From: Larkinella humicola
Lineage (GTDB): Bacteria > Bacteroidota > Bacteroidia > Cytophagales > Spirosomataceae
DNA: 64,000 nucleotides
Reading direction: 5' to 3'
NCBI RefSeq assembly: GCF_008727875.1
Contig: NZ_VTWS01000005.1
Span: 620,001-684,000 of the forward strand
Part shown: in pieces, positions 1,078-21,974 of the stretch
Numbering within the stretch: the stretch's first letter is position 1
Layout: every line of letters begins with the position of its first letter
Notes under the pieces: generated by a model
Told to the model about the DNA's origin: nothing
Seen by the model: only the letters and a program-made list of their open reading frames with translations
Database searches by the model: none
Program-made: the position numbers and the translations under genes

Positions 1078-3456
1078 TCATTCCGACCGCAGCGAGGTCA
1101 CCGGATTCATCAAAGCGGCTTTGATGCTTTGGAACGAAACCGTCAGCAGCGCAATCAGAATCGCCAGCCCGCCCGCCAGCACAAACACCCCGACGCTCAG
1201 GCTAATGCGGTAATCAAACTGTGAGAGCCAGTCGTTCAGGAAATAAGCCGCCAGGGGTGATGCCAGCAGACAGGCGACGATCACCAGCCCGACAAACTCG
1301 CGGGACAACAACCCCCATAAACTCACGACGCTGGCCCCCAGCACCTTGCGAATCCCGACTTCTTTGGTCCTTTGTTCGGCGAGAGAAGCCGCCAGCCCAA
1401 ATAGCCCGAGGCAGGCAATGAAAACGGCCAGAACCGCAAACACGCCCGCCAGTTTGCCGATCAGTTCTTCCTGTTTAAACTTGCGGTTGTAGGCATCGTC
1501 GACAAACTGGTAATCGAAGGGGAAAGCCGGGTTGAATTTCTGAAAAATCGGTTCGATCCGCGCCAGGGCTTCGGTCGTGTTGAGATTCGCAGCCAACCGA
1601 AAAATCACGTAACGTTCAAACGGACGGCCGGTGATCAGAATGAGCGGATTGACGGGCGTATACGGCGATTCGATGATCGAATTTTCGACCACGCCGACGA
1701 TTCGCAGCTTTGTGCCGGGGTCCCAGACAAAACTCAACTCCTGGTTCAGCGGATTCTTCAGCCGCATGGCTTTCACGGCTGCTTCGTTTAGAATGGCCGA
1801 TACCGAATCCGTGCCGTTGGCATAAAAATCGCGACCAGTTTTCAGTTCAATTCCCATCGTTTTCAGATAATCCGGCGAAGCGGCAATCAGGTTGAGCCGC
1901 ATGATTTCGTCGGGGGCTTTGCCCGACCAGTCCACCCGCGTGTCGCCCGTGATGGTGGTGGCCGGACTCGACGCTTTCGTCACGCTTTCCACCGCGCCAG
2001 AACCCAGCAACGCATTCCGAACAGCCTCGTAATTCCGGTTCAGATCGTTGGTTAGCGAAACCGTTAGCAACCGATCGGGATTATAGCCGATCGGGCGGTT
2101 TTTCGCGTATTGAATTTGTTGGTAGACCAAGATAGCACTGATGATGAAGGCAATACAGCCCGTAAACTGAGCGACCACCAGCACCTTGCGCGGCCAGTTC
2201 GCGTTTCGCCCAACGCGAACGCTGCCTTTCAACACCCGCACGGCCTTGAACGACGACAGGTAAAAAGCCGGATAACTCCCCGCCAAAACGCCCGTCAGCA
2301 CCGTAAAGCCCAGCGACAGCAGCCAGAAACCAGGTTTGGCCCACGGAAACGAAAGTTGTTTCTGAGTGATTTCGTTGAAAACCGGTAGAAAGAGCAACGC
2401 CAAAACCAACGCCAGCACGAGCGCCAGACCGGCAATCAGCAAGGATTCGCTCAGAAACTGGCCAACGAGCTGCGACCGAAACGAGCCAACGGCCTTCCGA
2501 ACACCCACTTCTTTCGCCCGTTTTTCGGACCGGGCGGTGGCCAGGTTCATGAAATTGATGCAGGCAATCAGCAAAACCGCCAGACCAACGATGCCGAAAA
2601 GCCGCACGTAGCGAATGAAACCGCCGGTATTTTTGCCGTTCTCGAACTCGCCGTATAAATGCCATTTTTCAACCGGGTGCAGGAAAGCCTCAAAAACCGA
2701 TTCCGGGTTATGCCGCTTGATCAGGCCCCGCAGTTTTTGGTTGACCTTCGCAGGATCCGCATTCGGATGCAGTTCGACCAGGTATTCGATAACGTTGTTG
2801 TTCCAGTTGGTCCGGCTGCTTTCAATCCAGGGCGCATTGGCTTCCAGGTGACTAAACGGGACCAGAAAATGAAAATCCCAGGCGGTGTTGGTCGGGAGCT
2901 TTTTCAAAACACCGGTCACTTTCAGGTCAAACGCGTCGTTAAGCCGAACGGTTTTCCCCATCGGGTCCGTCTGGCCAAACAGGGCGTTGGCGGTTTGTTC
3001 GGTCAGGACAATGGAATTCGGGTCCTGCAACGCCGTCGCCGAACTGCCCTGCCTCATCGGCAGATCGAACAGCTGTAAAAACGCTTTTCCGACATTCTGG
3101 CCTTTGCGAATCAGCTTTTTATCTCCAACTTTCAAGCCGTCTTCGGCTCGCAAATTGGTATTCAGCGATTCAACAACCCGCTTGAACTCCGGAATTTCGG
3201 TTCGCAGCACATTTCCCAGCGGGAGAGCGCCGTTGGCCTGGGTGGTGGTTTCGCCGTTGGCGGTCCGGTTGAGCATAATCCGGTACAGATTCGCTTCGTT
3301 TTTATAAAACCGGTCGAAGGTCAGTTCGTCCCAGACCCAGATGCCGATCAGCATGGCAACCGCCATGCCGACGGCCAAACCCAGGATGTTAATCAAGCTG
3401 AACCCCTTGTTTTTACGCAGATTGCGCCAGGCGATTTTGAAGTAATTTTGAAGCAT
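1078..3456 (-). CDS. FtsX/MacB-type ABC transporter permease (paralogue 1)
   Basis: A 792-residue inner-membrane protein of the double-FtsX family: an N-terminal helix (about 18-42), a periplasmic MacB-type domain, a block of helices around 285-430, a second periplasmic domain, and three C-terminal helices. It begins MLQNYFKIAWRNLRKNKGF and ends ALMNPVTSLRSE, the signature shared by all five paralogues here. EKRAKEVGVRKAVGS and EQRTKEVGIRKVLGA are the cytoplasmic coupling segments that normally contact an ATPase. No ATPase gene lies nearby, so the partner must be encoded elsewhere if one is used. Such permeases are thought to drive lipoprotein, peptide or drug export, but the substrate here is unknown. 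A palindromic element abuts its 3' end. Confidence 0.9.
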   Translation of the reverse strand: MLQNYFKIAWRNLRKNKGFSLINILGLAVGMAVAMLIGIWVWDELTFDRFYKNEANLYRIMLNRTANGETTTQANGALPLGNVLRTEIPEFKRVVESLNTNLRAEDGLKVGDKKLIRKGQNVGKAFLQLFDLPMRQGSSATALQDPNSIVLTEQTANALFGQTDPMGKTVRLNDAFDLKVTGVLKKLPTNTAWDFHFLVPFSHLEANAPWIESSRTNWNNNVIEYLVELHPNADPAKVNQKLRGLIKRHNPESVFEAFLHPVEKWHLYGEFENGKNTGGFIRYVRLFGIVGLAVLLIACINFMNLATARSEKRAKEVGVRKAVGSFRSQLVGQFLSESLLIAGLALVLALVLALLFLPVFNEITQKQLSFPWAKPGFWLLSLGFTVLTGVLAGSYPAFYLSSFKAVRVLKGSVRVGRNANWPRKVLVVAQFTGCIAFIISAILVYQQIQYAKNRPIGYNPDRLLTVSLTNDLNRNYEAVRNALLGSGAVESVTKASSPATTITGDTRVDWSGKAPDEIMRLNLIAASPDYLKTMGIELKTGRDFYANGTDSVSAILNEAAVKAMRLKNPLNQELSFVWDPGTKLRIVGVVENSIIESPYTPVNPLILITGRPFERYVIFRLAANLNTTEALARIEPIFQKFNPAFPFDYQFVDDAYNRKFKQEELIGKLAGVFAVLAVFIACLGLFGLAASLAEQRTKEVGIRKVLGASVVSLWGLLSREFVGLVIVACLLASPLAAYFLNDWLSQFDYRISLSVGVFVLAGGLAILIALLTVSFQSIKAALMNPVTSLRSE

Positions 3457-3522
3457 AAGCTGTTCGTCCTTGATGGTGTTTCAAGGTACGGACAACCCAC
3501 AAAAGTAGGGCGTTAAAAAAAG

Positions 3523-3597
3523 TTAAGAGTGAAGAGTTAAGAATGAAGAGTTGGCTGACGCATACATAACTCTTCATTCTTAACTCTTCACTCTTAA
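3523..3597. repeat. 30-bp perfect inverted repeat between permease genes
   Basis: Arms 3523-3552 and 3568-3597 are exact reverse complements with a 15-base loop. The arms are built from a GAAGAGTTAAGAATGAAGAGT-like purine-rich phrase. The right arm ends two bases before the stop codon of the permease at 3600-6038, and the left arm lies 67 bases beyond the start codon of the permease at 1078-3456. There is no run of T after the stem that would make a classic intrinsic terminator, though so long a stem could halt transcription or protect the mRNA 3' end. The same word recurs at 699-713 and 13043-13057. Confidence 0.85.
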
Positions 3598-3599
3598 TT

Positions 3600-6038
3600 C
3601 TATTCCGAACGAAGTGAGGAAACCGGATTCATCAAAGCCGCCTTGATGCTTTGGAACGAAATGGTTGCCAGCGCCACCAGCACGGCGGTTCCGCCCGCCA
3701 ACCCGAAGACCCACCATTCCAGATCAACCTTGTACTCGAAATTCTGCAACCACTGCCGGGTGGCATACCAGGCAATGGGCGAAGCAATCAGAAACGCGAT
3801 CAGCACCAGCTTCATGAAATCTTTCGACAGCAGCGTCACGATGCTGCCCACCGAAGCACCCAGCACTTTCCGGACACCGATTTCTTTCGTCCGTTGCTCG
3901 GTCATAAACGTTGCCAGTCCGAACAGACCCAGGCAGGCAATGAAAATCGCCAGCAGCGACGCCGTGACGAAAATCTTCCCGTATTGCTGCTCGGTCTGGT
4001 ATTGCTGGTTGTAATTCTCGTCAACGAAAAAGAATTCAAAGGGATTGCCGGGGTAGGTCGCTTTGTAAAGCCGCTCCAGAGCTCCCATTTTCGCCTGAAT
4101 CTGATCAGTGCCCAACTGAATGGTGAGCCAGTTCCCGTAGCGGCTGGGCATGAAAATAATCGGATCGATGGCTTCCCGAAGCGACTGGTGGTGGTAGTCT
4201 TTCACAACCCCCACAATTTCAAAGGCTTGCCCCCAGTTGATGATTTTCCCCACCGCGTCGGCCGCCGACGGGAAGCCCAGACGCCGGGCACCCGTCTCGT
4301 TCACCATCAGTTTGCCACTTTTCACGTAACCAGCCTCGCATTCGGTAGTCAGAAAATTCCGACCGGCCGCCAGGGCAATACCATACGTCGTCAAGTACCG
4401 GTGATCGATGAAACCCATCGAATACACGATTTTGTCAGCCTCTGCCTGCGGATTTTGCTTGACAATACCGCTGGTCGAGAAATTGTAAAAATTCCCCGGT
4501 ACGGTTCCCGAACTGGAAAAATTTTTGATGGAAGGTACTTGTTCCAGCTCGTGTTGAAAAGCCGCCGTCCGCGCTTGAAACGACTCGTCTTTTCCGACTT
4601 CCGGGCCGTGAATCACGACACGTTGCTCCAAACTGACGCCCAGATGCTGGTTTTGCATAAACTGCAACTGCCGGTACAGCACGAACGTGCAAATGATGAG
4701 GACCACCGACACGCTGAATTGAAAAACAACCAGCGATTTCCGCAGCGAGCCGCCTTTGGCACGGTTGCCAAAGGCGCCTTTCAAGGTCTGAAGTGGCTGG
4801 AAAGAGGATAACGCAAAAGCCGTATATCCGCCCGACGCCAGCGCACCGACAAGCAACAGGCACAATCCGATTAGCCAGAAACTATTGGAAGTCAGAATAC
4901 GGAGCGACAATTCTTTTTTAATTAGTTCATTGAATACGGTTTGCAAGCCGCTGATCAGCAGAATCGCCAGACCAAAACCAAGCAGGTTGAGCAGGAACGA
5001 TTCGCCCAGAAACTGGCCGATCAACTGTCGCTGACCAGCGCCAACGACTTTCCGCACGCCCACTTCTTTCGCCCGTTTCAAGGCCCCCGCCGTCGAGAGG
5101 TTGATGTAGTTGAACCAGGCAATCGCCAGAATCAGCACGGCAATCCCGCCCAGCAAGTAGACAAAAGCCAGCTTGCCCGTGGTCGGATACGGATCGCTGA
5201 GCGACGCACCCAGGTGGATGGTCGCGGCCGGTTGCAACACCATCCGGTTCTCGTCCGGCGGGCGGATTTTCTGCTTCAACTGATCAAATTTATCCTCCAG
5301 TTTTCGGGTATCCGTGCCTTCGGGCAATTGCAGATACGTCATCAGGTACGACCCGTCGAAACTGTCAAGCCGCGCCCAGTCGTTGCCGTTGAGGTTGGCC
5401 GGGTTCGCCAGCGTTTGCAGCGAAAACACCATACCAAACTGCATATCCGAATTTTGGGGCATGTCGGCATAAACCGCCGAAACTGTAAAAGGCGTTGTTC
5501 CAAACTGATTGTTCATCGTCACCAATTGCCCCAGCGCCTTCGCATCGCCAAAATACTTCCGGGCGTAGGATTCGGACACGGCTACCGTATTGGGCCGGGT
5601 CAGCGCGGTGGCAGCATCGCCCTGAAGGAGCGGAAACGTGAACAGGGTAAAAAAACTGGCATCGGCATAGGCGACGTCGGTTTCCCGGAAGGCCTTCGGC
5701 GACAGGCGGTTTTTCCCATCAGAAGCCGAAACGATACCGGAGATCGAATTGTCGACCACCCGGCAATACGTTTTCACTTCGGGAAATTGCTGCTTCATCA
5801 GCGTTGCCACCGCCGGAGCCATATCCGGCCAGACCTCGCCGGCTTTGTTCTGCCACAACATCCGGTAGAGCGTCGGCAGGTTGGCATGGAATCCGTTGAC
5901 GCTTTTCTCAAAACTGATGTACTCCAGAATCAGCACAAAAGCGGCAATGCCGAGCGCCAGCCCGGCCATATTGACGCCCGAAAAAACCTTGTTTTTCCAA
6001 AGGTTTCGAAACGCAATTTTGAAGTAGTTTTTGAGCAT
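3600..6038 (-). CDS. FtsX/MacB-type ABC transporter permease (paralogue 2)
   Basis: An 812-residue protein with the same plan as the gene at 1078-3456: start MLKNYFKIAFRNLWKNKVF, periplasmic MacB-like domain, central helices beginning ILAIAWFNYINLSTA, coupling segments KRAKEVGVRKVVGAG and EQRTKEIGVRKVLGA, three C-terminal helices, and end ALMNPVSSLRSE. The ATG at 6038 is chosen because it starts this conserved motif. It follows on the same strand as paralogue 1 but with a 143-base gap holding a perfect palindrome, so cotranscription is uncertain. About 105 bases upstream lies a pair of TGTCCG-N4-CGGACA boxes (6144-6181), likely a regulator site. Substrate and ATPase partner are unknown. Confidence 0.9.
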   Translation of the reverse strand: MLKNYFKIAFRNLWKNKVFSGVNMAGLALGIAAFVLILEYISFEKSVNGFHANLPTLYRMLWQNKAGEVWPDMAPAVATLMKQQFPEVKTYCRVVDNSISGIVSASDGKNRLSPKAFRETDVAYADASFFTLFTFPLLQGDAATALTRPNTVAVSESYARKYFGDAKALGQLVTMNNQFGTTPFTVSAVYADMPQNSDMQFGMVFSLQTLANPANLNGNDWARLDSFDGSYLMTYLQLPEGTDTRKLEDKFDQLKQKIRPPDENRMVLQPAATIHLGASLSDPYPTTGKLAFVYLLGGIAVLILAIAWFNYINLSTAGALKRAKEVGVRKVVGAGQRQLIGQFLGESFLLNLLGFGLAILLISGLQTVFNELIKKELSLRILTSNSFWLIGLCLLLVGALASGGYTAFALSSFQPLQTLKGAFGNRAKGGSLRKSLVVFQFSVSVVLIICTFVLYRQLQFMQNQHLGVSLEQRVVIHGPEVGKDESFQARTAAFQHELEQVPSIKNFSSSGTVPGNFYNFSTSGIVKQNPQAEADKIVYSMGFIDHRYLTTYGIALAAGRNFLTTECEAGYVKSGKLMVNETGARRLGFPSAADAVGKIINWGQAFEIVGVVKDYHHQSLREAIDPIIFMPSRYGNWLTIQLGTDQIQAKMGALERLYKATYPGNPFEFFFVDENYNQQYQTEQQYGKIFVTASLLAIFIACLGLFGLATFMTEQRTKEIGVRKVLGASVGSIVTLLSKDFMKLVLIAFLIASPIAWYATRQWLQNFEYKVDLEWWVFGLAGGTAVLVALATISFQSIKAALMNPVSSLRSE

Positions 6039-6143
6039 GGTCGTTTAGGTTTCTAAAATGGATGACTTATTCAGTCCAAACGCTGTACCAGAAAGAATAA
6101 ACTCCTGATTATAAAATAATTACATTACAGACAAAAAGCATTT

Positions 6144-6181
6144 TGTCCGCAAACGGACGACCTGTTTTCCGCTTTCGGACA
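6144..6181. promoter_or_regulatory. Candidate tandem operator, TGTCCG-N4-CGGACA
   Basis: Two 16-bp near-perfect palindromes: 6144-6159 (TGTCCGCAAACGGACG) and 6166-6181 (TTTCCGCTTTCGGACA). Each has one mismatch in a half-site. Their starts are 22 bp apart, two helical turns. They lie between a divergent pair, the permease starting at 6038 (minus) and the peptidase starting at 6316 (plus). The same arrangement occurs at 21937-21974 before another permease. The binding protein is unknown. Confidence 0.5.
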
Positions 6182-13060: not shown

Positions 13061-15526
13061 TTATTCTGAACGCAGTGACTTCACCGGATTCATCAAAGCC
13101 GTTCGAATGGAGTGGTAGCTGACCGCAGCCAGCGCGACAGAAACGCCCAACGCTCCCGCGAGCGCAAAAATGGGCCAGTTCAGCGGAATGCGGTAGGCAA
13201 AACTATCCAGCCAGCGGTTCATTAGCCAGGTCGATAGCGGGATGGCCAGAGCGAAAGCCAGCCCCACCAGCGTCAGCGTCCGGCGGTTGAGCAAGACCCA
13301 GAGTTGCCCCACGGTGGCGCCCATCACTTTGCGAATACCGACTTCCCGCATCCGGTTGATGGCCTGAATGCCCGCCAGCCCGAACAATCCCAAAGCCGCG
13401 ATCAGCAACGCAATGCCGGTGGCGAGTTGGGTCAGCGTGGTCCAGCGTTGGTAGTCGCGATACCGGGCTTGCAGATCCTGATCCAGAAAAGAATACTCGA
13501 AAGGTTGCCCGTCGGAAAGCTGCGGCCAGTCGCGGGCAATGCGGGCGACTTTGTCGGACAGATGGCCGGGCGTCAGTTTCAGGTAAAACACGCCCTGAAA
13601 GCCCAGATCCAGTTTGTAATATGCGGGCTGAATGGCTTTGGTGAGCGGTTCGATGTTGTGGTCATTCACGACGCCAATCACCGTCCGCCCATTCAAGGTT
13701 TCCAGCGGTTTGTTGAAAACCAGCTCCTGACCCAGCAACTTCGCCAGCGTTTCGTTGATCACCACCGCCTTGACGCTTTTTGCCGTATCCGATCGAAACG
13801 CCGGCGAAAAAATCCGGCCCTGTTTGAGTTTGATTCCCAGCAACGTGAAGAAGTTGTAATCGATGGCCTGTTGCAAGGCCCAGTATTTCTGTCCGTTGAT
13901 CGTGGTGCCGTTGCGGTTAAAACCGTCTTCGCCGTAACCGCCCGCACTGCTCGCTACCAGCAATACGTCCGGGTTCGCCGACTGATACCGCAGCAACCGT
14001 TCATAAATCCGGGGGCCGCTGCCGTCCTCAAACGGTTGCAGGTTTTTGACCTTGAGAACCAGTTCTTTCGTCAATCCCAGTTCCTTTTCCTGCACAAAAC
14101 TCAACTGTTTATGCATCGTAATGGCCGCCGTCACCAGCACCAGCGACAACACAAACTGCGTTCCCATCATCGCCTGAATCACCAGCGGATTGATTTTGTA
14201 GGTTCGGTTTTGACCCAGAAACAAATTCGGTCGTAGACGGGCGAACAGCAACGCCGGATAAATTCCCGCGATTACGCTGACCGCCAATACCATGCTCAAC
14301 AAGCCCAGCAAATTACCCGCCTGAAAAACGTCGAAAACCGTCAGCGTCCGGTCGGTCAGGCCATTGAAGGTCGGCAACAGCAGCAACGCCAGCAGCAGGC
14401 TGATGACCGACGCCAGGCCCACAACCAGCACGGTTTCCAGCCAGAGCTGCACGGCCAGGTGTTGCGGAGCCGCCCCCACCACTTTCCGAACGCCCACTTC
14501 CTGCAAACGCCCCGCCAGTTTCGACAGCGAAATGATGATGTAATTCAGACCGGCCACGAGCAGAATCAACAGACTGATGGACACCAGCAGGTACACATTC
14601 GTCGGCGAAACCGTACGGTTCCAGCGTTCGCTGAACGAAAAATGCGTATCGGTCAGCGGGCGAATGGTCAGTAAAAACGGGTTATTGGTCAGGCGGTCTT
14701 TGTGTTCAGGCGACGCTGATTTGAGCATATCACCGATCACTTCGTTGAAGAGTTTCGGTCCCAGATTAGCCAGTTTGGCCGTAGCCTGCGGCAGCGAAGC
14801 CGTCGGACTCAGTTTACCGAATGTATGGACATTGCTCGTGTTGTACCGTTGTTCGAGTTGCTTCTTGTAGTAGTCATCGCTCTCCAATCGCACCACCAGT
14901 TCGGCGGTGAGTGCCGTGTTCGACGGCGGGTTTTGCATCACGCCCGAAACCGTGTAGAATTTACCATCGTACCGGATGGTTTTGCCCACCGGATGATCGT
15001 TCGCAAACAGTTTCTGCTTCAGCCGTTCCGAAATCACCGCGTTGTGCAAACCGGCCAGCACCTGCTCCGGGCGACCCACCGTCAACGGAATCGAGAAAAA
15101 CGTGAAATAATTGGAATCCGCAAACAGAATGGCCTTTTCATACACCGCGTTCGTTCCGTATTTCACGATGCTTTCCTGAAGCCTTGTCATTCGAACGATG
15201 TCCTGAAATTCCGGCATTTGCTGTTTGATTTCCATCCCGAAAACCACCGGAAAGATCAGACTCCGGTGTTCTTCGGCCGGAAAAAACGGCAGGTTGAGCG
15301 GGTGCCGTTTCGGCTTCCCCTCAAAATCAAACAAATCGGTCGATTCAAACCGGTAGATGCGGTCGGCGTCGGCCTGAAACCGGTCGAACGAGCGTTCATG
15401 GCGCACAAAGGCGTAGGTCAGCAGGCCGAACGCCAGGGCAACGGACAAACCCGCCAAATGGATACTGGAATAAACCGGATCGCGCCGGAGGCTGCGGAGA
15501 GCGACTTTGAGGTAGTTTTGAAGCAT
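13061..15526 (-). CDS. FtsX/MacB-type ABC transporter permease (paralogue 3)
   Basis: An 821-residue member of the same family, the most divergent of the five: MLQNYLKVALRSLRRDPVY at the start, a His-rich region after residue 40, and ALMNPVKSLRSE at the end. Coupling segments are RLQEVGVRKVVGAA and MREVGIRKVMGAT. The central helix block starts LLILLVAGLNYIII. Its first periplasmic domain contains SERWNRTVSP, not seen in the others. No TGTCCG boxes were found upstream. It is followed by the repeat array at 12868-13057. ATPase partner and substrate are unknown. Confidence 0.88.
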   Translation of the reverse strand: MLQNYLKVALRSLRRDPVYSSIHLAGLSVALAFGLLTYAFVRHERSFDRFQADADRIYRFESTDLFDFEGKPKRHPLNLPFFPAEEHRSLIFPVVFGMEIKQQMPEFQDIVRMTRLQESIVKYGTNAVYEKAILFADSNYFTFFSIPLTVGRPEQVLAGLHNAVISERLKQKLFANDHPVGKTIRYDGKFYTVSGVMQNPPSNTALTAELVVRLESDDYYKKQLEQRYNTSNVHTFGKLSPTASLPQATAKLANLGPKLFNEVIGDMLKSASPEHKDRLTNNPFLLTIRPLTDTHFSFSERWNRTVSPTNVYLLVSISLLILLVAGLNYIIISLSKLAGRLQEVGVRKVVGAAPQHLAVQLWLETVLVVGLASVISLLLALLLLPTFNGLTDRTLTVFDVFQAGNLLGLLSMVLAVSVIAGIYPALLFARLRPNLFLGQNRTYKINPLVIQAMMGTQFVLSLVLVTAAITMHKQLSFVQEKELGLTKELVLKVKNLQPFEDGSGPRIYERLLRYQSANPDVLLVASSAGGYGEDGFNRNGTTINGQKYWALQQAIDYNFFTLLGIKLKQGRIFSPAFRSDTAKSVKAVVINETLAKLLGQELVFNKPLETLNGRTVIGVVNDHNIEPLTKAIQPAYYKLDLGFQGVFYLKLTPGHLSDKVARIARDWPQLSDGQPFEYSFLDQDLQARYRDYQRWTTLTQLATGIALLIAALGLFGLAGIQAINRMREVGIRKVMGATVGQLWVLLNRRTLTLVGLAFALAIPLSTWLMNRWLDSFAYRIPLNWPIFALAGALGVSVALAAVSYHSIRTALMNPVKSLRSE

Positions 15527-16376: not shown

Positions 16377-18731
16377 TCATTCTGATTTTAAACTGTTAAC
16401 CGGATTCATTAATGCGGCATTGATAGACTGAAACGACACCGTCAGCACGGCAATCAGTGTGACCAGACCACCCGCTGCTGCGAAGAGTCCTCCTTCCAAT
16501 CCGACACGGTACGCGAAATCCTGCAACCAGCGATCCAGCGCATACCAGGCAACCGGAGCAGCAATGAAAAAGGCAATGAGAACTAACTTGAGAAAATCTT
16601 TGGAGAGCAATAACACCACGTTAACGACGGACGCACCTAAAATCTTGCGTATCCCGATCTCTTTTGTTCGTTGCCCGGTTGTAAAGGTAACAAAACCGAA
16701 TAGTCCTAAACAAGAAACCAGGATGGTTAATGTGGCGAAACCATTAAAAACTGTTGCCAACACCCGGTCTTTGTGGTATTGAGCCTCAAACGATCGGTCC
16801 AGAAATTCATAATCGAACGGATAGAGCGGGTAATGTTGCTGCCAGATGGTTTTCACCACCGGCAACTGATCGGCCCGCAGGTTCAGCATAACGCTGCTGG
16901 CCGGAACGGTGTTGTACACCAGCACCAAAGGTTCGATCAGGTTGTGCAGGGAGCGATAATGGAAATTCTTCACGACGCCAACCACCTTCCCCTTGTGACC
17001 AAATCCGTCGATTGTCTGCCCGATGCCGTCCTTCCAACCCGCCAGTTTAACAAACGCTTCATTGACGAGAAATCCCCCTTTCAAATCGGCTTTCGATTGC
17101 GACGACAGGTTGCGCCCGGCTTTCAGCTTCATGTTCAGTAAGGGTAAAAACTGGTCATCCACAAACAGGAAATTACTCATCAGTTCCCGTTTTCGTCCAT
17201 TGCTCCGGAAGGTCGTGGAGGCCATGGGCAGCAAACCCGATGGCTGCAAACCGGAGCCCAGCGTCACCGCGCCGACCTCACTGCGGTTTTTCAGGCTGTT
17301 GGCAAACGCGGTGGCGGCCGCCCGCGCCGTCGAGTCGTCGGGCAGGTGAACGCTCAGAATGCGATCTTTCGAAAAACCCAGATCTTTGGTTTGCAGAAAA
17401 TTCATCTGCCGGCGAATTACCAGAACCCCGGCGATCATGCCGACGGCTAGCACAAACTGAAAAACAATCACGGACTTTCGCAACCACGCGCCTTTTCCGT
17501 AGCTGCCCAGCCGCCCTTTCAACACCTCGACCGGGCGGTAATTGGACAACACAAAAGCCGGGTATAAACCGCCTGCCAGCGTGATCAGCAGCCACGTAAA
17601 ACCGATCAGCGGCACGGCTTCTGCGAAGACGATTGACAGGCGGATTTGTAACAGTTCATTGAAAAAAGAAAGGGCCAAATACACCAGCACCACGGCAATA
17701 CCGACCGAAAAACCGCTTAACAAAAACGATTCCAACAGAAATTGCCGGATCAACTGACCGCGTTGGGCGCCGTTGGCCTTCCGAATCCCGACTTCTTTGG
17801 CGCGTTCGGTGGCTTTGGCCGTCAGCAGGTTGATGTAGTTCAGCAGGGCAATGGCCAGGACAAATACCGACAGAAAAGCGAATAGATACCCGTACTGTTT
17901 GTTGCCTTTGGGCGTATCGGCCATTTTGCCCTGGCTGTAATGGACGTCTTGCAACACCTCCGCCGGGAAGCTGAGCGAGTAGCCCTCCGCGCCCATTTTT
18001 TTCAGTTCCGGGTTAGCGTATTTATTCGCAAGCTGGGTTAGTTTTTTACCGAAACCCGCCAGATTGGGTTCGTCCCGGAAAAGAACGTAGGTATAACACG
18101 GAAAATCATCTTCCACCCACGACCGGCTTCCGGTGAACACTTTGGAAAGCAGGGCGCTCACGGGCAAATCGGTATTGCTCGGCGCATCGGACACCACGCC
18201 GGTGATCTGAAAAAGCTGCTTGTTGAATTCGAGGGTTTTTCCCAGCACATCCGTCTTCCCGAAATACTTTTTTGCCAGCCCTTCGGTCAGAACCGCGCTG
18301 TTCGGATTTGCCAGCGCCGACGCCGGATTTCCCGCCAGAAATGCATACGAGAAAACCGAGAACACTTCCTTGTCGGCGTAATAGACGTTCGATTCTTTGA
18401 GCAACTTATCCTCATGGCGGATGACGGCATCCGTAGGCAGCAAACGCACGGCGGTTTCGACTTCCGGGTAATCGCGTTTCAGCGCTTCCGCCAGCGGAAC
18501 CGGGCTGGAGGCAATCGACAAAACCGACTCCGGCGTTTTCATATCAGTCGTCACGCGCACGATGCGGTGGGCGTTGGCGTGGTAGCCGTCATACGAAAAC
18601 TCGTGGTCGACATACAGCGCCATCAGCAGACAGGCCGCCAGCCCGATGGCCAGCCCACCGACGTTCAAACCGGTGTAGAGTTTGTTGCGCCAGAGGTTGC
18701 GCAGGGCGATTTTGAGGTAATTGCTCAGCAT
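16377..18731 (-). CDS. FtsX/MacB-type ABC transporter permease (paralogue 4)
   Basis: A 784-residue paralogue: MLSNYLKIALRNLWRNKLY at the start, first helix at about 20-42, periplasmic domain, central helices from VFVLAIALLNYINLL, coupling segments ERAKEVGIRKANGAQ and GQRTKEIGIRKILGA, and end ALMNPVNSLKSE. The central coupling segment has Asn-Gly in place of Val-Gly. The start codon at 18731 lies only 43 bases from the divergent Uma2-family gene at 18775, so their promoters must overlap. No ATPase gene is near. Confidence 0.9.
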   Translation of the reverse strand: MLSNYLKIALRNLWRNKLYTGLNVGGLAIGLAACLLMALYVDHEFSYDGYHANAHRIVRVTTDMKTPESVLSIASSPVPLAEALKRDYPEVETAVRLLPTDAVIRHEDKLLKESNVYYADKEVFSVFSYAFLAGNPASALANPNSAVLTEGLAKKYFGKTDVLGKTLEFNKQLFQITGVVSDAPSNTDLPVSALLSKVFTGSRSWVEDDFPCYTYVLFRDEPNLAGFGKKLTQLANKYANPELKKMGAEGYSLSFPAEVLQDVHYSQGKMADTPKGNKQYGYLFAFLSVFVLAIALLNYINLLTAKATERAKEVGIRKANGAQRGQLIRQFLLESFLLSGFSVGIAVVLVYLALSFFNELLQIRLSIVFAEAVPLIGFTWLLITLAGGLYPAFVLSNYRPVEVLKGRLGSYGKGAWLRKSVIVFQFVLAVGMIAGVLVIRRQMNFLQTKDLGFSKDRILSVHLPDDSTARAAATAFANSLKNRSEVGAVTLGSGLQPSGLLPMASTTFRSNGRKRELMSNFLFVDDQFLPLLNMKLKAGRNLSSQSKADLKGGFLVNEAFVKLAGWKDGIGQTIDGFGHKGKVVGVVKNFHYRSLHNLIEPLVLVYNTVPASSVMLNLRADQLPVVKTIWQQHYPLYPFDYEFLDRSFEAQYHKDRVLATVFNGFATLTILVSCLGLFGFVTFTTGQRTKEIGIRKILGASVVNVVLLLSKDFLKLVLIAFFIAAPVAWYALDRWLQDFAYRVGLEGGLFAAAGGLVTLIAVLTVSFQSINAALMNPVNSLKSE

Positions 18732-19280: not shown

Positions 19281-21674
19281 TTACTCCGTGCGCAAACTCT
19301 TCACCGGATTCGCCAAAGCCGCTTTGATGCTCTGGAATGAAACCGTCACCAGAGCGACCAAAACCGCCAAACCACCCGCCAGCGCGAACATCCACCATGC
19401 CAGACTGATCTTATAGGCAAAATCCTGTAACCATTGATTCATGGCGTATCCCGCAATCGGGCTGGCAATCACCATGGCTACCACCACCAGTTTCAGGAAG
19501 TCTTTCGAGAGCAGCGCAACAATGCCGGCCACCGACGCGCCCAGCACTTTTCGAATGCCGATTTCCTTCGTCCGCTGAACGACTACCAACGACACCAGAC
19601 CGTATAACCCGAGTCCGCAAATCAGGATGGCGATGCCGGCAAAGGTGTTGACCAGCCGGAAAATCAGGTTCTCGGTTTCGTAGAACTGCGCCAGTTGCTC
19701 GTCCAGAAATTCGTATTCAAAAACCGCATCGGGAAACTGTTTCTCCCAAACCTTCTGAATGCGCTGAACGGTTTGCTGCGGATTGTGACCCGAAATCCGA
19801 ATACCGATCCGCTGATACATTTTAAAGTAACTGGCAATGAAACAGGGCGCAATTTCGTCGCGCAGCGACCGCAGGTGAAAGTCCTTCACCACCCCCACAA
19901 TCGGCAGCGCAACCGGCGACAGGTAATACTGCATTTTGCGGCCCAGCACCTGCTGTGGATCACGGATGTTCAGCTTCCGCAGAAGTGCTTCGTTGATGAG
20001 GTATTCCCGAATCGTATCGCTTTCGGTCAGGTTACGGCCCGCAACGAGTTGTAAGCCATACGTTTTGAGGTAATCGGCATCGGCCAGCCGTTCCCGAATC
20101 GGGAAATCCGTCCATTCGGCCCTGTCGCCAAATTTGAACGAACCGCCGTTCATAATCAGGGCGGATGGCGGGCGGTGGCTGGCACTGATTGATTTAATTT
20201 CAGGATACTGAAGCAACTCATTCTTAAAGGTTTCCCGTGACGCTTTCTGTGGGTCGGGCAAGTTCACGATCACGACATTGTCTTTTGTAAAACCCACATC
20301 GGTCGTCTGGATGTAACGAACCTGCGTGGCTACCACCAGCGAGCCGATGATCAAAGCCTGGCAAATGACAAACTGCAGGACGATCAACGACTGCCGTACG
20401 GAATAACTACCCCCCGATTTAGCCGACAGTTTCCCTTTCAAAGCCGCCCACGGACTAAACCCCGACAACACTGCGGCCGGATAACCACCCGCCAGCAGAA
20501 TGACGACCAGAACGAGTAGCGCTGTAAAACCAAGCGTCAAACCGTCCGGACGCAGCGACAAACCGATGTTGACCCACCGATTGAAAACCGGCAGACTCCC
20601 TGCGGCCATCAGGAGGGCCAACGCGGTTGCGGCCAGCACGATCAGCGCGGTTTCGAGCAAAAACTGCCGAACCAGTTGCCCCCGCGTACTGCCGAGTGTT
20701 TTGCGAATACCGACTTCTTTGCCCCGCCGGAGTGCCTGGGCCGTCGCCAGATTGACGAAATTGATGCAGGCCGTCAGCACCAGAAACAGGCCTACCAGAC
20801 CCAGCGACCAGAGCAGCGACGGGCGGATGGCCGTGGCACCACCCAAAATGCGCCGAACATCGAAATGGCTCTCCCGGAGCGGCTGGAAATGAAAGTGAAG
20901 GACGTTGGAACCCAAATGCTTTTTGGCCAGAGCGGGCATGGCAGCTTCCAGACTGCCGACCGATTGGGGATCTTTTAACGTCACGAAAAGCCGGTAATTG
21001 CTATTGAGCCAGCTCCAATCCGCCTGATTAAAGTCCGGACTAAACTCCTTGAGGGTTGCAAGGGAAATAAAAAAACGAATATCGGTGTCGGTCGTTTTGG
21101 GAGGCTCGGCCAGAATACCGGTTACTTTGGCATCGATTCCGGATTTTAGATTCAGCGTTTGGCCCATCGGGTCGGTGTTGTCGAAATACTTTTTAGCCCA
21201 CGACTCGGTCAGGACGATGCTGTTGGGTTCACGGAGGGCGGTTTTGGGGTTGCCGCGCAGCCATTGATAATCGAAAATCTTAAACAATTCCGGCTCAACA
21301 AAAGCGGTTCCTTTGTGCTCCATAAAGCGAAGCGGTTTCCCGTTCTTCTGGTACGTTACGGTCAGTTCGCGGTTCATGATCAGAAAAGCCGCCTGGTCGA
21401 CCTGCGAAAAATCCGTACGCAACGCCTGCGCCATCGGCAGCGGAGCTTCGGGGTAGTACTCGACGGAACCGTCGTCGAGGTGCATGTCTGTCACCACCCG
21501 GAAAATGCGGTCAAATTGGGTGTGATGCCGGTCGGTGCTGAGGTGGTAGCGGACGAATAGAAAAATGAGCAGTCCGCCGGCCATTCCGATGGACAACCCC
21601 AGGATGTTGAGCAGGGTATAGCTCCGTTGCGCAGTTAAATTCCGCCAGGCGATTTTGAAGTAGTTCTGTAGCAT
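19281..21674 (-). CDS. FtsX/MacB-type ABC transporter permease (paralogue 5)
   Basis: A 797-residue paralogue starting MLQNYFKIAWRNLTAQRSY; this ATG (21674) is preferred over one 15 bases upstream because it begins the conserved motif. Central helices start LFLVLTACINFVNLATA; coupling segments are RRGKEVGIRKTLGST and VQRTKEIGIRKVLGA; the end is ALANPVKSLRTE, with Ala for Met and Thr for Ser compared with the others. An 866-base region separates it from the divergent susC and holds a pair of TGTCCG-type boxes at 21937-21974. ATPase partner and substrate are unknown. Confidence 0.9.
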   Translation of the reverse strand: MLQNYFKIAWRNLTAQRSYTLLNILGLSIGMAGGLLIFLFVRYHLSTDRHHTQFDRIFRVVTDMHLDDGSVEYYPEAPLPMAQALRTDFSQVDQAAFLIMNRELTVTYQKNGKPLRFMEHKGTAFVEPELFKIFDYQWLRGNPKTALREPNSIVLTESWAKKYFDNTDPMGQTLNLKSGIDAKVTGILAEPPKTTDTDIRFFISLATLKEFSPDFNQADWSWLNSNYRLFVTLKDPQSVGSLEAAMPALAKKHLGSNVLHFHFQPLRESHFDVRRILGGATAIRPSLLWSLGLVGLFLVLTACINFVNLATAQALRRGKEVGIRKTLGSTRGQLVRQFLLETALIVLAATALALLMAAGSLPVFNRWVNIGLSLRPDGLTLGFTALLVLVVILLAGGYPAAVLSGFSPWAALKGKLSAKSGGSYSVRQSLIVLQFVICQALIIGSLVVATQVRYIQTTDVGFTKDNVVIVNLPDPQKASRETFKNELLQYPEIKSISASHRPPSALIMNGGSFKFGDRAEWTDFPIRERLADADYLKTYGLQLVAGRNLTESDTIREYLINEALLRKLNIRDPQQVLGRKMQYYLSPVALPIVGVVKDFHLRSLRDEIAPCFIASYFKMYQRIGIRISGHNPQQTVQRIQKVWEKQFPDAVFEYEFLDEQLAQFYETENLIFRLVNTFAGIAILICGLGLYGLVSLVVVQRTKEIGIRKVLGASVAGIVALLSKDFLKLVVVAMVIASPIAGYAMNQWLQDFAYKISLAWWMFALAGGLAVLVALVTVSFQSIKAALANPVKSLRTE

Positions 21675-21936
21675 AAGCCCCGTTGGCAAGCCTGATTTGG
21701 TTGCCCTAAAGGTACTGGCTATCCCCTTCCAAGCATCGTTCTGCCTTATAAACAGCCTGTTAAAAAAAGTTAAGAAACCAACAACTTCGACGTGCGGTAA
21801 CTATTAAAATATTGAATACGGACCATTGAACAACGAATTTTGAAACGATTGATTCGGTTTTCGTTCTTCAATAGTCGATAGTACTCCTTCATTCCGGCGA
21901 AGCGGGTAAGCGGAATCAAAACAAACCGCTGCTTTC

Positions 21937-21974
21937 TGTCCGCAAATGGGTAAATTTTCGTGCGGCAACGGACA
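21937..21974. promoter_or_regulatory. Candidate tandem operator, second copy
   Basis: TGTCCG (21937-21942) and CGGACA (21969-21974) are the good half-sites of two degenerate 16-bp palindromes, 21937-21952 and 21959-21974, again 22 bp apart as at 6144-6181. CGGACAACCCA (21969-21979) is also found at 3489-3499 before permease 1. Alternatively TGTCCG...ATGGGT...CGGACA...ACCCAT could pair as an H-type pseudoknot in RNA. Confidence 0.45.

Follow-up and report, generated by a model that had tools for sequence, protein, structure and literature searches.

Tandem palindromic boxes upstream of FtsX-type permease genes in Larkinella humicola as putative enhancers of a sigma-54-type promoter

The window analysed here, a stretch of 64,000 nucleotides (C16:620001-684000) from the 7.86-Mb genome of Larkinella humicola (G000, 20 contigs), carries five genes for duplicated FtsX/MacB permeases of the ADOP type (Table 1). 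Permeases 2 and 1 probably belong to one operon, as suggested by their orientation and the 143-bp gap between them. The scores of nine permeases tested with TIGR03434 were 252-337 bits, which is under the curated cut-off of 622.3 bits, and we therefore call the proteins ADOP-type and not certified members of the family. Upstream of permease 2, an earlier note on this DNA had described two 16-bp palindromes 22 bp apart, and these were indeed found, each differing from TGTCCG-N4-CGGACA at a single position. A sigma-54-type promoter element stands between them and the gene. The gap between permease genes 1 and 2 holds an inverted repeat, AACTCTTCACTC...GAGTGAAGAGTT (window 3523-3597), of which a 12-mer had 17 exact matches in the stretches of the genome examined. 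Other copies occur in the permease clusters, several of them in the DNA separating ADOP genes; they are possibly hairpins or a small mobile repeat.

Table 1. Features of the window and of the candidate regulator locus on contig C13 (window positions unless a contig is named).
Feature	Position	Strand	Remarks
Permease 1, 792-aa ADOP-type permease	1078..3456	-	Probably second gene of the permease 2 unit; TIGR03434 E 6.9e-93 (below cut-off)
Half-site word CGGACAACCCA	3489..3499	.	Probably chance; no partner box
Permease 2, 812-aa ADOP-type duplicated FtsX/MacB permease	3600..6038	-	First gene of unit; TIGR03434 E 4e-86 (below curated cut-off); PF12704
Sigma-54-type -24/-12 element TGGTACAGCGTTTGG	6076..6090	-	GG at 6088-6089, G of -12 at 6077; 54 bp from proximal box
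Putative gene-proximal UAS box TGTCCGCAAACGGACG of permease 2	6144..6159	.	Palindrome, 1 mismatch
Putative distal UAS box TTTCCGCTTTCGGACA	6166..6181	.	22 bp from proximal box, 1 mismatch
821-aa ADOP-type permease	13061..15526	-	No UAS found (best pair 11 mismatches)
784-aa ADOP-type permease	16377..18731	-	Grouped with the 802-aa permease; UAS: box scan only
802-aa ADOP-type permease	19281..21689	-	No convincing UAS
Degenerate box pair	21937..21974	.	3 + 2 mismatches; probably not functional
Candidate NtrC-family response regulator	G000:C13:205802-207187		Receiver + AAA+ sigma-54 activator + Fis-type HTH
Histidine kinase, 442-aa ORF	G000:C13, L193:2970-4298		Directly behind the regulator; HATPase_c in C-terminal part

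The window pair is beyond chance, unlike lone boxes, which at up to three mismatches showed no excess in the window (29 against a shuffle mean of 35). Pairs were scored with a sequence-only model trained on 15 other pairs in the genome, all upstream of permease or PadR genes, with the window sites held out. The window pair reached an E-value of 6.1e-5 within the window and of 0.0075 (19.6 bits) at genome scale. Comparison with the upstream regions of related genomes showed that the proximal box and the promoter element (TGGT..A.C.TTTG in the alignment) are conserved in all six congeners aligned, out of eight in the set, while the spacer between them diverges. The same six congeners also retain the outer half of the distal box; three of them, G003, G008 and G001, have a degenerate inner half, with 5-6 mismatches over the pair. 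In G004, no pair was found within the best match to the 6144 region.

The earlier note had also pointed to two weaker sites in the window. The letters of the pair at 21937-21974 are as the earlier note gave them, but we rejected it as a second functional site: the model did not match it, whether at a genome-wide threshold of E <= 10 or at one of E <= 5 for the window, no sigma-54 element was found beside it, and alignment with three congeners (G006, G002 and G005) showed no conservation of its letters. These results, together with its five mismatches, indicate that the pair probably reflects chance or decay. The 11-base word upstream of permease 1 is likewise present, but as a lone half-site in a partnerless 16-mer with three mismatches.

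The genome contains 38 boxes with at most one mismatch, versus 15 for the reversed pattern. A partner with up to three mismatches at a distance of 17-60 bp was present for 26 of the 38, at offsets of 21 bp (15), 22 bp (8) or 23 bp (3) and nowhere else in that range; this count took in all 38 boxes, and pairs of two good boxes count twice. The tandem arrangement is borne out, with a true range of 21-23 bp instead of the fixed 22 bp proposed earlier. Of the 12 boxes with no partner, ten fall within reading frames. C16:559945 and C18:275867 are the two exceptions; both have a sigma-54-type element at 53-55 bp and precede genes for secreted-looking proteins, i.e., a 368-aa protein with GGSI repeats (C16:558750-559856) and a 232-aa protein (C18:275039-275737), respectively. 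These two genes are likely further, one-box members of the regulon.

At E <= 0.01, the pair model matched 21 distinct sites in the genome, 20 of them over the full length and one over 37 of the 38 positions. Six were outside the training set, namely the window pair, C16:494068 in front of a PadR-ADOP unit, and four others. The sites are not scattered at random: 17 head ADOP units, eight of which are PadR-led, and four head genes for secreted-looking proteins. Three of the latter (C1:72788, C14:432480 and C15:646521) precede paralogues of 124-128 aa that are 49-54% identical, one with a weak match to DUF3244. The fourth (C18:276879) precedes the gene of a 237-aa protein, one region of which is shared by two of these paralogues.

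On the side of the permeases, 27 units were grouped by eye from the map of open reading frames, one of which (C2:91) is only a candidate permease. A pair with 1-4 mismatches precedes 17 of these units, which together hold 48 of the 60 permeases listed. Among the remaining ten, the unit at 21689 is preceded by the five-mismatch pair at 21937, and in the other nine the best pair has 10 mismatches or more. The boxes are common to both permease classes in the genome, prefixed and PadR-led on the one hand and unprefixed on the other. Permease prefix domain 2, with 24 matches in the genome, was found in the four permeases of 878-904 aa tested, all from PadR-led units; the five window permeases (784-821 aa) had no match to it. 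The proposal of a dedicated regulator for the permease family is strongly supported by these data, since the boxes stand upstream of many permeases beyond chance and are kept at orthologues.

Between boxes and gene stands TGG[CT]A-N5-[AT]TTG, i.e., GG-N10-G, the spacing of a sigma-54 -24/-12 promoter. The pattern GG[CT]N7TTG was found at 52-56 or 64 bp from the proximal box at 20 of the 21 paired sites, and the 21st, on C14, has GG-N10-GC at 54 and 65 bp. Of 89698 random anchors, 503 showed the pattern at the same spacings. At other distances in the same genome, elements were sparse, save for an echo of the distal boxes. In the relatives, the distances peak at 53-56 and 65-66 bp, with five matches at 43-44 bp and a few elsewhere. 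Both in this genome and in the relatives, the two distance classes differ by roughly one turn of the helix, in keeping with an activator that has to approach the polymerase from a single side of the DNA. An element was present in 96 of 242 readings in the relatives, each pair being read from both sides, so some pairs there have none. For the window unit, the position of the element predicts a transcription start near 6065, about 87 and 109 bp downstream of the two boxes. One RpoN gene is present in the genome (PF04552 at C17:293172, E 1.6e-54, with the box ARRTVAKYRE).

The element departs from the classical sequence at -12, where a C follows the G in just 2 of the 21 elements of this genome and 5 of the 96 in relatives; the -12 element is mostly TTG[GTA], not TTGC. 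The ordinary promoter of Bacteroidetes is TAnnTTTG. We rejected it as a description of the element, which in our compilation has GG ten bases before the G (a requirement of the compilation) and no preference for T-A at the two corresponding places of TAnnTTTG.

Because all 21 pairs face GG-N10-G at a fixed helical phase, the boxes are best read as sigma-54 enhancers and not as operators of PadR repressors, which were the first candidate. The earlier note had pointed to PadR-type proteins as frequent companions of such permeases. PadR matches, 14 in the genome, lie outside the window; nine adjoin ADOPs, and eight of these nine have a pair upstream. If the boxes were operators in front of prefixed permeases, PadR dimers would repress their own and other units. 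Such a role would fit the ADOP-linked PadR proteins, which match TIGR03433 weakly (below the curated cut-off), and the TGT-N10-ACA contained in the palindrome, which loosely resembles known PadR boxes. However, an operator for PadR would be expected to coincide with the promoter and to go with PadR-led genes. The boxes instead stand clear of the promoter element, at 52-56 or 64 bp on its upstream side, and nine of the 17 boxed ADOP units have no PadR gene in front. The pair also sits at a sigma-54 activator gene across genera, and 14 of 35 box-bearing genomes have no match to perm_prefix_2, the query used as a stand-in for the PadR-led class. Moreover, one PadR-ADOP unit, C11:438546, has no boxes. 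We consider operators of PadR very unlikely and dropped them on the strength of the fixed-phase element and the PadR-less sites.

The PadR genes preceded by boxes are probably targets within the regulon. One PadR unit, at C16:570, has its own pair and its own promoter element beside a neighbouring pair. In the sole PadR-ADOP unit devoid of boxes, a near-exact direct repeat, TTTTACATACATTT[AG]GTGAATTAATAA, precedes the PadR gene (C11:438761-439300); it is perhaps a true PadR site or a housekeeping promoter site.

With the boxes taken as sigma-54 enhancers, the candidate for the protein that uses them is the response regulator encoded on C13, one of eight clear sigma-54 activators in the genome. 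Domains Response_reg, Sigma54_activat and HTH_8 were all found in it. The pair in front of its gene (C13:207332) has one mismatch in all and is common to the regulator and a divergent unit of HlyD, ABC ATPase and ADOP genes. Among the best 30 related loci, 24 have a pair with up to six mismatches upstream of the regulator. The same holds for 42 of the 80 named loci listed, from Larkinella, Emticicia, Runella, Dyadobacter, Spirosoma, Chitinophaga, Mucilaginibacter and others. In the control set, made up of other 450-bp windows of the same loci and possibly including some true sites, the figure was 15 of 1691. The best 30, the named loci and those used for promoter readings overlap in species and are not independent. 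In the other 38 named loci listed, no pair was found within 450 bp of the regulator; HlyD starts about 2 kb away in seven Spirosoma/Fibrisoma loci. Gene order is widely kept among the 80 named loci listed, with a divergent HlyD homologue in 61, an ABC homologue in 61 and a kinase homologue downstream of the regulator in 65. Identity to the regulator among the named matches listed is 87-92% in Larkinella and 70% or less in the next.

All eight activators could use a sigma-54 promoter, and the one on C1 shares with the C13 regulator the loop sequence GAFTDA and is encoded beside half-size MacB-type genes. Nevertheless, it is very unlikely that an activator other than the C13 regulator binds the boxes: the DNA stretches examined around the other seven genes contained no tandem pair, and it is at the C13 regulator that the pair is conserved across many genera. 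The C1 activator gene (G000:C1:8405-9787) also has a kinase-like gene nearby. The loop of the C13 regulator deviates from GAFTGA in the same way as in most of its relatives; among 110 proteins compared, its own included, 100 read GAFTDA and two GSFTDA, and eight gave no match.

Regulator and boxes agree in 51 of 59 genomes, 33 having both and 18 neither, with the regulator alone in six and the boxes alone in two. Fisher's test gave p 3e-8, or 1.3e-6 without the nine genomes of the genus, with presence of the regulator defined by a cut-off (E <= 1e-140) set after the values were seen. The search for boxes in relatives, a set of more than 40 genomes, used stricter filters, of a kind that lose weak matches. 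The six genomes without a model match, out of 39 with the regulator, are G024, G026, G028, G037, G045 and G047; the first three do have a pair with 2-6 mismatches beside the regulator, and in G037 and G045 no pair was seen there. Of the two genomes with boxes only, that of G032 is 66% complete, and in G009 part of the regulator (residues 154-460) has a match at 57%.

Half-sites and the recognition helix of the regulator may covary. A T at position 4 of the half-site was found in 0 of 88 cases with Q in the helix, versus 40 of 132 with A, which is suggestive only since the clades are related. A tandem pattern of the TGTT type had 40 matches in 26 of the 59 genomes and none in the reversed control. 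This search does not separate the helix classes because congeners also have one or two matches, and G022 has one though it is without the close regulator.

Taken together, the boxes are very probably enhancers of a sigma-54 promoter used by the C13 regulator, as judged from sequence, spacing, conservation, gene order and co-occurrence. The histidine kinase beside the regulator may sense a signal and phosphorylate it, and dimers of the regulator would then occupy both palindromes, whose spacing of 21-23 bp places them on the same side of the helix. The bound dimers could assemble into an AAA+ ring that loops to a sigma-54 RNA polymerase waiting at GG-N10-G, 52-56 or 64 bp further on, and ATP hydrolysis by the activator would open the promoter. 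In this way, one regulon would be switched on that comprises the 17 boxed ADOP units and several secreted-looking proteins, taking in the HlyD-ABC-ADOP unit beside the regulator and the eight PadR-led units. The permeases may have a role in stress or export.

There is next to no chance that the pairs are instead a dispersed repeat, or a site for a protein outside transcription, that travels with permease promoters. The permease clusters do hold other dispersed repeats, such as the inverted repeats in their gaps, but at the pairs the boxes and the -24/-12 element are kept while the DNA between them changes. The two spacing classes one helical turn apart, and the sites before genes other than permeases, also argue against a repeat. 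Counting against the sigma-54 enhancers themselves are the -12 doublet that is seldom GC, the GAFTDA loop, the pairs in relatives that have no element, and the genomes with the regulator only. A further reading, less likely than not, is a distinct Bacteroidota lineage of sigma-54 control, in which GAFTDA activators would have co-adapted with a -12 of TTG[GTA] and one two-component system might command about fifty paralogous orphan permeases, with PadR as an added layer, in a single envelope response.

The kind of system is known, and the literature searched gave no report of the regulon itself. In the textbook NtrC/ZraR/AtoC type, an enhancer-binding protein acts from a tandem palindromic UAS on a sigma-54 promoter. 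The present system resembles it in the receiver, AAA+ and Fis-type HTH domains of the regulator, the adjacent kinase, the two palindromes, GG-N10-G and RpoN. It differs in the -12 doublet and the loop, and in its reach, as a single regulator would act on about twenty promoters, most of them belonging to paralogous permeases. In Acidobacteria, ADOPs are associated with PadR. The genome studied here likewise has many duplicated orphan permeases, some behind a PadR gene (TIGR03434, TIGR03433), but scores are below the NCBIfam curated cut-offs and most units share the sigma-54-type enhancer. To our knowledge, no role has been assigned to the dozens of such permeases per genome. ADOP copy number in two Dyadobacter is noted in a passage of PMC11573002.

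A link of sigma-54 to FtsX-like permeases is already in print, in the sections of PMC12316311 (PLoS One 2025) considered here. Promoter matrices predicted enrichment of sigma-54 promoters for COG0577 (antimicrobial-peptide ABC permease) in gamma-Proteobacteria, Opitutia and Bacteroidia, which was called the first evidence for this family. These sections name no activator or UAS for the permeases, both of which are proposed here, and the word PadR is absent from the text of the paper. They describe a selection that kept only GAFTGA activators and a consensus of TGGCAC-N5-7-TTGCT, by which the C13 regulator and probably most of its promoters would be missed. Top-ranked matches for broad queries of open-licence full texts gave no description of the activator, its UAS or the ADOP/PadR regulon, and PMC3162934 had no match to the six terms probed for. 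The GAFTDA variant has precedents. In the part of PMC4641369 that concerns it, DVU2106 of Desulfovibrio vulgaris is listed with GAFTDA and target operons, and the variant is held able to activate; as described there, this is a single-component regulator with cell-division targets, unlike the one proposed here. In Dickeya, according to a passage of PMC10714721, pull-down with a GAFTDA regulator did not recover RpoN.

Should most ADOPs be driven by a single sensor-regulator pair, deleting that pair or locking it on would provide a one-step test of the role of the family. The box motif allows the regulon to be read in Larkinella, Dyadobacter, Runella, Emticicia and Chitinophaga. A natural case of what searches based on GAFTGA and TTGC would tend to miss is offered by the GAFTDA activator and its non-GC -12 promoters. 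In more distant Bacteroidota (L327, L332, L335, L336, L341 and L342), tandem words like TGT.CG-N4-[CT]GATAC or related ones were seen by eye upstream of the regulator; these are perhaps the same UAS with a shifted half-site.
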